Of a stretch of 64,000 nucleotides of DNA, positions 38,370 to 40,250 are shown one piece after another (position 1 is the stretch's first letter; every line of letters begins with the position of its first letter). The stretch comes from Aquariibacter albus (GTDB lineage: Bacteria > Pseudomonadota > Gammaproteobacteria > Burkholderiales > Burkholderiaceae_C), in the NCBI RefSeq assembly GCF_014145335.1, contig NZ_JACIVI010000001.1:1-64000 (forward strand), read 5' to 3'. The notes under the pieces are model-generated. The model was not told where the DNA came from. It made no database searches and worked only from the letters and a program-made list of their open reading frames with translations. Made by a program: the position numbers and the translations under genes.

Positions 38370-39749
38370 ATGAGCCTCGCCCCCGCGCCCATCGCGTCCT
38401 CCCCCGCATCCGACGCCCCTGCGGCCTGGGCCCCCGGCCCGGCCGACCTGGCCGCCTTGCAGGCCGCCGGCATCCCCGCCGCCCTGCACCTCTTCCCGCC
38501 CAGCGCCCAGGCCGCCTGGGCCCGGCTGGCGGCGCTGAAGCCCGCCAGCTACGCGCGCAGCCGCAATGCGCTGGACGGCGCGGTCTCCGGCCTCTCGCCC
38601 TATTTCGCCCACGGCCTGATCGAGCCCGGCGCGGCCCTGGCCGCGCTGGCCGCCCGCCACCGCCTGGGCTACGAGGACAAGCTGGTCTTCGAGTTCGGCT
38701 GGCGCGCCTTCTTCCACCACGTGCGGGCGCGGCGGGGCGACGCCATCCTCGACACCCTGCGGCCCGAGGGCCTGCCCGCCGGCCCGGCCGCCTACCGCGC
38801 CCGCCTGCCCGAGGACGTGCTGGAAGCCCGCAGCGGCGTGCCGGCCATCGACCAGGCGGTGCGCGTGCTCTATGCCAGCGGCTACCTGCACAACCACGCC
38901 CGCATGTGGCTGGCCAGCTACCTGGTGCACCTGCGCAAGGTCGACTGGCGGGTCGCGGCCGACTGGCTCTACGGCCACCTGCTCGACGGCGACCTGGCCT
39001 GCAACCACCTGAGCTGGCAGTGGGTGGCGGGCAGCTTCTCGTCCAAGCCCTATCTTTTCAATGCCGACAATGTGGCGCGTTATGCGCCGGCGGCGGCCGC
39101 CCGCGCCTGGCGCTCGGCGGGCACGCTGATCGACCGCAGCTACGAGGCGCTGGAGCAGCTGGCCCGCCAGGGCCGCGCCAGCGGGCCCGAGCCCGGCGCG
39201 CATCCGGCCGTCGAGCCGCCTGCGCTCCGGGCCGAGCCGTCCGCCGAGATCCTGGCCGGCCTGCGCCGGCTGGACGACCTGGCTGAACTCGGCCCCGCCA
39301 CCGCCGCGCTGGACCTGGTCCACCCCTGGGCCCTGGGCGAGCCGCCGGTCGGTGACCGTCCGCAGCGCCTGGGCCTGCTGCACCTGCCGGCGCATGCGGC
39401 CCGGCCCTGGTCGGCGCGGCGCTGGGCCTGGGTGCTGGCGCGCATGGCGGCGGTCTGCGACCGGGTCTGGATCGGCGATGCCGCGCCCCTGCTGCAAAGC
39501 CTGCGCGCCCAGGGCCGGCCGCTGCGCGCCGCGCCGGCCCCCGAGTCGGGCTACGCCAGGCTGCTGGCCGGCCTGGCGGCCCCGTCGGCGCCGCCGCCGC
39601 TGTTTGCCGATCCGGCCGGCTCCTGCACCTCCTTCAGCCGCTGGTATGCGCAGAGCCAGGCCCTGGCCCCGCATCTGGAGGATCGGCTGCGGCCCTGGGC
39701 CGCGGCGGGGGCCGCCGGCTTGGGCACACTGTCGCTGTTTCCGGGCTGA
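38370..39749 (+). CDS. Photolyase/cryptochrome FAD-domain protein with non-standard architecture
   Basis: The 459-residue product begins with a photolyase FAD-binding domain (about 45-265): YARSRNALDGAVSGLSPYF, YEDKLVFEFGWRAFFHHV, QAVRVLYASGYLHNHARMW, DGDLACNHLSWQWVAGSFS. The usual N-terminal alpha/beta antenna domain is missing. A 180-residue C-terminal region (GLLHLPAHAARPWSARRWAW, then IGDAAPLLQSLRAQG) looks alpha/beta but I do not recognise it; it could be a permuted antenna-like domain. It may be a DNA repair enzyme or light sensor. Class and activity are uncertain. Confidence 0.8.
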   Translation: MSLAPAPIASSPASDAPAAWAPGPADLAALQAAGIPAALHLFPPSAQAAWARLAALKPASYARSRNALDGAVSGLSPYFAHGLIEPGAALAALAARHRLGYEDKLVFEFGWRAFFHHVRARRGDAILDTLRPEGLPAGPAAYRARLPEDVLEARSGVPAIDQAVRVLYASGYLHNHARMWLASYLVHLRKVDWRVAADWLYGHLLDGDLACNHLSWQWVAGSFSSKPYLFNADNVARYAPAAAARAWRSAGTLIDRSYEALEQLARQGRASGPEPGAHPAVEPPALRAEPSAEILAGLRRLDDLAELGPATAALDLVHPWALGEPPVGDRPQRLGLLHLPAHAARPWSARRWAWVLARMAAVCDRVWIGDAAPLLQSLRAQGRPLRAAPAPESGYARLLAGLAAPSAPPPLFADPAGSCTSFSRWYAQSQALAPHLEDRLRPWAAAGAAGLGTLSLFPG

Positions 39750-39788: not shown

Positions 39789-40250
39789 ATGTCCGCGCCT
39801 TCCTCCGCCCCCGACGCTGCCGGCCCCGTGCCCCTGCTGGCCACCCGCCTGGGCCTGGCCGGCCTGCTGCCCTTCGTGCTGGGGGCCGCACTGGTCTGGA
39901 TCGTCAACGAGGAGGCCCATCCCTATGTGGTCGATGCCCTGGCCGGCTATGCCGCGCTGATCGCCAGCTTCCTTGGCGGCCTGCACTGGGGCCTGGCCAT
40001 GCGCCTGCCCGAAGGGCCGCTGCGCGTGGCCCGGCTGCGCTGGGCGGTGCTGCCTTCCCTGATCGCCTGGATCGGGCTGACCATGCCGGCCTACGCCGGC
40101 CTGGTGGTGCTGGGCGGGCTGCTGATCGCCTGCTACCTGGTCGACCGCCGCAGCTACCCCGCCCTGGGCCTGGCGCCCTGGCTGACGCTGCGCTTCCGGC
40201 TCAGCACCGTGGCCGCCCTGAGCTGCTTCCTGGCCGCGGCCGGCAGTTGA
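39789..40250 (+). CDS. DUF3429 family membrane protein
   Basis: A 153-residue protein with four to five membrane helices. The central AALIASFLGGLHWGLAM segment is typical of DUF3429. Function unknown. It lies 39 bases after the photolyase-like gene and 40 bases before the M61 peptidase gene, so it may be in one transcription unit with both. Confidence 0.85.
   Translation: MSAPSSAPDAAGPVPLLATRLGLAGLLPFVLGAALVWIVNEEAHPYVVDALAGYAALIASFLGGLHWGLAMRLPEGPLRVARLRWAVLPSLIAWIGLTMPAYAGLVVLGGLLIACYLVDRRSYPALGLAPWLTLRFRLSTVAALSCFLAAAGS

Follow-up and report, generated by a model that had tools for sequence, protein, structure and literature searches.

A probable inverted-order photolyase of Aquariibacter albus with a putatively relocated antenna-type domain

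A gene in a 64,000-nucleotide stretch of the Aquariibacter albus genome (the window) probably encodes a light-driven DNA repair photolyase of inverted domain order, related to NewPHL/SPL and to Phr4/5/6, a reading to which we assign a probability of roughly 78%. The FAD domain comes first in this protein, and the region that follows is best read, from sequence profiles and structural models, as the alpha/beta (antenna-type) domain of photolyases relocated to a C-terminal position. CPD photorepair is the most likely function predicted from the sequence, and its role may be auxiliary, since the genome carries two further photolyase-family genes with conventional domain order. The inverted layout itself is known, having been published as NewPHL/SPL and Phr4/5/6; NewPHL and SPL were reportedly first described in Emmerich 2020 and Xu 2021. 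The gene and its catalytic domain lie at the following positions of the window:

38370-39749, plus strand: inverted-order photolyase, whole gene, 459 aa with an ATG start (intact open reading frame and relatives)
38487-39173, plus strand: FAD (catalytic) domain, about residues 40-268 (Pfam PF03441, photolyase structure alignment, AlphaFold2 pLDDT mostly >90)

The gene at 38370-39749 is real, as a genome of the same genus (G001) has the protein over residues 1 to 459 with 93% identity. Raw counts of codon differences between the two genes, not normalized, gave 41 synonymous and 31 non-synonymous changes, the latter divided into 11 in the first 40 residues, 8 in residues 41 to 270, and 12 in residues 271 to 459. 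In the genome collection, 165 relatives were confirmed; the best 80 of these, all from other genomes, showed 46 to 54% identity in the best segment, with 75 aligned over most of their length. Many of the 80 are labelled as Burkholderiales or its genera and are mostly metagenome assembled, and a few bear other labels. Five partial loci (L029, L050, L057, L076, and L077) were left out of this set and three more (L021, L032, and L034) were omitted before alignment, so that alignment A1 holds 72 of the 80 loci. At one further locus (L168, genome G268), a photolyase of the window's branch is found in two frames, an FAD part and a C-domain part, through a split, a frameshift, or a sequencing error. 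Among 50,697 phage records, 10 match an alpha-type relative, none of them over 80% of that relative.

Pfam returned a single match on the 459-aa protein, FAD_binding_7 (PF03441) at residues 108 to 264 (E 1.4e-22), and structural comparison widened the domain to about residues 28 to 269. NCBIfam gave only DASH cryptochrome and photolyase catalytic-half matches, far below the cut-off. The AlphaFold2 model of the whole protein, based on 73 sequences, reached a pLDDT of 88.7 and a pTM of 0.88, with the first 18 residues poorly predicted. The N-terminal part of this model (residues 10 to 275) was placed by VIA-align closest to the Vibrio cholerae (6-4) photolyase (Z 16.7), and no alpha/beta domain precedes the FAD domain. 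The first-pass annotation had put the FAD domain first, at residues 45 to 265, and had suggested a permuted protein; both points hold, as the open reading frame is confirmed and the domain order is inverted relative to conventional photolyases.

Residue equivalences were obtained by mapping the protein on E. coli photolyase (1dnp), and conservation was counted over 73 rows:

38691-38693, plus strand: E108, equivalent to E. coli E274 (E in 71/73 rows)
38793-38795, plus strand: Y142, where E. coli has W306, the distal Trp being replaced by Tyr (Y in 72/73)
38892-38906, plus strand: N175...M179, equivalent to E. coli N341...M345 (N in 73/73, M in 70/73)
38946-38948, plus strand: W193, equivalent to E. 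coli W359 (73/73 rows)
39003-39005, plus strand: N212, equivalent to E. coli N378 (73/73 rows)
39015-39017, plus strand: W216, equivalent to E. coli W382 (72/73 rows)

W111 (E. coli W277) and W218 (E. coli W384) are also present in 73 of 73 rows, which completes what we take to be the CPD-site list of the E. coli enzyme (E274, W277, N341, M345, and W384; E108, W111, N175, M179, and W218 in the window protein). N212 is presumably the Asn beside FAD. W216, which we take to be the Trp adjoining FAD, and W193, presumably the middle Trp of the electron path, are both kept and the W306 place is Tyr, so that the protein has a Trp dyad, not a triad. The NewPHL of D. shibae likewise has a Trp dyad, and the Asn switch residue is conserved in NewPHL, according to the accessible portions of the respective reports (PMC8948257, PMC12083526). 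In the proposed mechanism, the all-helical N-terminal domain would bind FAD, and the CPD would be held by the five residues of the substrate site. On excitation by blue light, reduced FAD would pass an electron to the CPD, the dimer would split, and the electron would be returned. Oxidized FAD may be photoreduced via W216 and W193, possibly ending at Y142. A preference for single-stranded DNA, carried over from the NewPHL literature, is less sure.

Phylogenetic analysis of the FAD domain, with trees constructed without DASH, class II, or PhrB-type rows, separated 37 inverted or split proteins from 9 conventional proteins among 46 chosen rows with full support (100/100). The inverted side contains an alpha-type, NewPHL-like branch (n = 10; 100/99), a second branch (n = 11; 86/95) whose members are split or fused and of which 10 have Fe-S cysteines, and the window's own branch (n = 16; 96/94, Persicobacter left out). 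The window branch and the Fe-S branch group together (95/91; 94/92 with Persicobacter included). When the long Persicobacter row was added, the inverted or split rows, 33 in that tree, fell on one side (100/100) and the window branch was recovered at 93/78. The Fe-S cysteines occur in the rows of Deinococcus, G055, G337, G398, G371, G426, and G392, L166 (G302) being without them, and split and fused forms both occur inside this branch. By its sequence, the window protein lies in a separate branch of inverted-order photolyases, sister to the Fe-S branch; a clade of the alpha-type and window branches without the Fe-S rows was not rejected (p-AU 0.416, on a row set including the conventional photolyase that neighbors the inverted one in Persicobacter). 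The window FAD domain falls with the alpha-type relatives against the conventional rows at 100/100, and its putative kinship to NewPHL runs through these alpha-type look-alikes, not through characterized NewPHLs. Homologues of the same domain order have been reported as CPD photolyases, as far as the accessible parts of PMC13274461 and PMC9426592 go, which is largely the outcome that the first-pass annotation had named as counting against its own reading; the literature searched yielded no characterized member of the window's own branch, and the founding NewPHL/SPL papers may include that branch. The second conventional-order photolyase-family protein of the A. albus genome (G000:C1:1172444-1173067, minus strand, locus L002) shares a very long branch with a 507-aa Persicobacter open reading frame (L099, 3474-4997), which is located directly downstream of the inverted photolyase of that genome.

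The proteins that the sister branch resembles have been described from marine cyanobacteria: Phr4 and Phr5 as two genes and Phr6 as a fusion, with reversed domain order and Fe-S cysteines, predicted in the available part of PMC9426592 to be (6-4) photolyases. The same portion of that report describes a phr4 mutant that is UV sensitive, mainly to UV-C, and E. coli carrying phr4/phr5 with UV-C survival raised equally in light and dark, which lends slight weight against light-driven repair in the sister type. That the window protein is itself a (6-4) photolyase, as its place beside the Fe-S branch in the tree might suggest, is in our judgment highly unlikely. The four Fe-S cysteines are absent from the window branch, where Cys reaches at most 12 of 73 rows at any position of the two regions, and N175 and M179 fit the CPD pattern, whereas both positions are His in eukaryotic (6-4) enzymes.

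The second half of the protein was analyzed separately, and two features are placed there:

39222-39719, plus strand: predicted C-terminal alpha/beta domain, antenna-type and Z-domain-like, about residues 285-450 (AlphaFold2, VIA-align, hhalign)
39393-39425, plus strand: stretch with invariant H342, W347, R351, and W352, W320 being upstream (C-terminal domain alignment)

In the window protein, the C-terminal stretch is without a Pfam match, and 73 members gave only stray weak matches. Modelled alone with AlphaFold2, the domain reached a pLDDT of 88.1 and a pTM of 0.76, with alternating strands and helices. A Foldseek search with the domain alone gave no PDB match at E <= 0.001, its best rows being unrelated, and the resemblance to photolyases emerged only when 996 Foldseek candidate chains were realigned with VIA-align. 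Ranks 1 to 6 were then all photolyases, representing four distinct proteins (8a1h, Z 7.7; 7ykn, 7.6; 4dja, 6.5; 9hnk, 6.3; 9q8f, 6.2; and 1iqr, 5.9), ahead of the first unrelated row at Z 5.6, and in all six the alignment begins where their N-terminal alpha/beta domain begins. The best row covers 101 residues at 2.5 A, over residues 21 to 150 of the V. cholerae (6-4) photolyase; its Z of 7.7 falls short of 8, the value below which the tool advises caution, and is not proof alone. A lone hmmsearch match to spectrin in the PDB sequences (E 0.21) was taken as chance.

Direct profile comparison of the window-branch C-domain failed both with the N-domains of conventional photolyases (E 0.039 over 28 columns) and with the alpha-type C-domain (E 0.34). 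A profile of 11 related alpha/beta domains, encoded by separate genes or fused, matched the window-branch C-domain over 130 columns, nearly end to end (hhalign pairwise E 2.1e-8 without a shuffled control, probability 95). The same profile matched the N-domains of 30 conventional photolyases (E 1.4e-12, probability 98; 10 conventional proteins without the start motif of the pattern used are omitted from that profile) and the alpha-type C-domain (E 1.9e-5, probability 78). Since the direct match fails, the link of the window C-domain to ordinary N-domains runs through this 11-domain set. Smaller profiles gave E 0.0015 (two Deinococcus C-domains) and E 0.0011 (four Deinococcus domains and one from G055), and the score of the latter, 27.75, compares with 7.2 to 14.3 for 10 column-shuffled controls.

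Several of these domains are encoded by their own genes, as named plasmid relatives revealed. Deinococcus sp. QL22 (L094) has two genes with a 4-base overlap, one for the FAD domain (257 aa) and one for a protein of 173 aa, and the other three Deinococcus proteins are fused. The 173-aa protein shows similarity to the ordinary N-domain, PF00875 (DNA_photolyase), at E 2.3e-4, and PF00875 matches were confined to Deinococcus P0004 and P0005 (2.3e-4 and 1e-3), both below the Pfam cut-off. Genome G055 (L156) also has a split pair, and five genomes of the window's order have FAD-only open reading frames with a separate small gene at the 3' end, in the same order (L162 in G337, L163 in G398, L164 in G371, L165 in G426, and L166 in G302). 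The small alpha/beta genes of split photolyases encode about 130 to 175 aa. The window-branch C-domain HMM found three of the five separate small genes of the order (E 1.9e-7, 7.7e-6, and 2.5e-5) and missed two, and the Deinococcus/G055 HMM found all five together with the fused G392 protein. By analogy, these genes may be called Phr5-like, the cyanobacterial Phr5 being known here by description. Collectively, the photolyase fold match, the profile chain, and the gene-pair intermediates point to a relocated antenna-type domain as the most plausible identity of the C-terminal region. The first-pass annotation had described this region of about 180 residues as an unknown, possibly new domain; it is right that no Pfam model names the region, and the novelty does not stand.

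Such a domain would most likely cover the FAD domain as a structural lid and is less likely to be a signalling output. We consider it rather unlikely that the protein is a repair enzyme that still has an antenna chromophore bound in its relocated C-terminal domain and gathers light there: the fold is that of antenna-binding domains, nearest to the PhrB type, but NewPHLs are, to our knowledge, antenna free. The accessible parts of two reports likewise pull in opposite directions, as an antenna chromophore is present in the V. cholerae (6-4) photolyase (PMC9852545) and the Phr7 Z-domain is described as atypical and short (PMC9426592).

The gene immediately following the photolyase may encode a partner:

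39789-40250, plus strand: DUF3429 membrane-protein gene, 39 bases downstream of the photolyase, possible partner (PF11911, E 8.2e-30)

Next come genes for an M61 peptidase and for a DUF3108 protein. The fetched flanks, some of them short, contain a DUF3429 gene at 23 of the 80 loci; at 15 of these it is immediately downstream of the photolyase, on the same strand. It also adjoins the Asticcacaulis relative (same strand) and the Novosphingobium relative (divergent); the loci with DUF3429 next to an inverted photolyase are L004-L015, L030, L050, and L077, and L098, L158, and L159. The gene was found in none of seven wide alpha-type loci examined and was absent from the Ruegeria, Peteryoungia, Niveispirillum, Persicobacter, and four Deinococcus stretches, several of which are short. 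Several NewPHL-like genes of alphaproteobacteria (L097, L098, L157, and L159) have a gene of the AarF/ABC1/UbiB kinase family nearby.

At the genome level, DUF3429 is present in all 9 of the genomes with a window-type protein versus 7 of the 31 others among 40 relatives. Across 250 genomes of the order, it occurs in 25 of 30 with an inverted or split FAD domain versus 38 of 220 others (Fisher p 8.6e-13), and by genus in 13 of 15 versus 17 of 106 (p 9e-8); these counts use an FAD-domain cut of E <= 1e-45 chosen after inspection of the list, place four genomes with weaker matches (G035, G039, G277, and G346) among the others, and take both scans as the same 250 genomes, as assumed from equal settings and matching handles. 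In 6 of the 30 genomes, DUF3429 lies within 150 bases of the inverted or split FAD gene. The co-occurrence might also have arisen through shared ancestry or lifestyle. No DUF3429-photolyase link was found in the literature searched, and the founding NewPHL/SPL papers may include the window's branch.

This neighbor could fit a cryptochrome-like light sensor, with the FAD domain as photoreceptor and the C-terminal domain and the DUF3429 membrane protein as signal output, much as the first-pass annotation had proposed a sensor with a new output domain. The C-terminal domain does diverge faster (mean column identity 33% versus 45% for the whole protein) while W320, H342, W347, R351, and W352 nonetheless stay invariant in it, the DUF3429 gene both adjoins and co-occurs, and the two other photolyase-family genes could cover repair. 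However, the CPD-site residues are conserved, the supposed output domain is of the antenna type, and inverted relatives are reported as repair enzymes in the available text of PMC13274461. We therefore regard a sensor as very unlikely and the earlier proposal as unsupported. A third, Fe-S-free inverted lineage, in which the C-domain was rebuilt around the invariant W/H/R cluster and has DUF3429 as its working partner, perhaps in a repair unit associated with the membrane or in a light signal coupled to repair, is a speculative idea that we consider quite unlikely. The preferred reading remains a photolyase that repairs CPDs.

The significance of these results is modest and lies chiefly in the two-gene and one-gene forms and in the DUF3429 link. 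The "unknown" second domain of inverted photolyases can be tied to the alpha/beta domain of ordinary photolyases, here at another position in the chain. Gene pairs in which the FAD gene precedes the alpha/beta gene, in the order seen in the fused protein, suggest a simple route, in either direction, between two genes and one domain-swapped protein, and this route bears on the root of the photolyase/cryptochrome family, which the accessible literature treats as debated. The DUF3429 association provides a testable clue to that family.

Among known systems, NewPHL/SPL has inverted topology and repairs CPDs in single-stranded DNA, as given in the available part of PMC13274461, and SPL is named as a class in the portions at hand of PMC9178010 and PMC9649867. 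Published NewPHL sequences with accessions in PMC13274461 are those of D. shibae (A8LJA9), M. mesophilicum (M7YZC8), E. litoralis (Q2N8F4), and R. centenum (B6IPR5). Phr7, an FAD domain plus a Z-domain according to the accessible part of PMC9426592, is counted with them. The window protein shares with this group the FAD domain first, a small alpha/beta-type domain last, the Trp dyad, and the CPD-site residues, and like Phr7 it is without Fe-S cysteines. It differs from the NewPHL-like alpha rows in forming a separate branch, in a C-domain that is not directly alignable to theirs (E 0.34), and in having Tyr at the position of W306, at which none of the 10 alpha rows is aromatic. With Phr4/Phr5/Phr6 it has in common the FAD domain first and a photolyase domain second, and two-gene and fused forms exist there as split pairs do in the window's order; those cyanobacterial proteins, compared by description, have the four Fe-S cysteines, whereas the window branch has none. 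With the class I CPD photolyase of the E. coli type it shares the FAD domain, the CPD-site residues, and the W382/W359 equivalents, and it differs from that enzyme in its opposite domain order, without an N-terminal alpha/beta antenna domain, and in the replacement of the distal Trp by Tyr.
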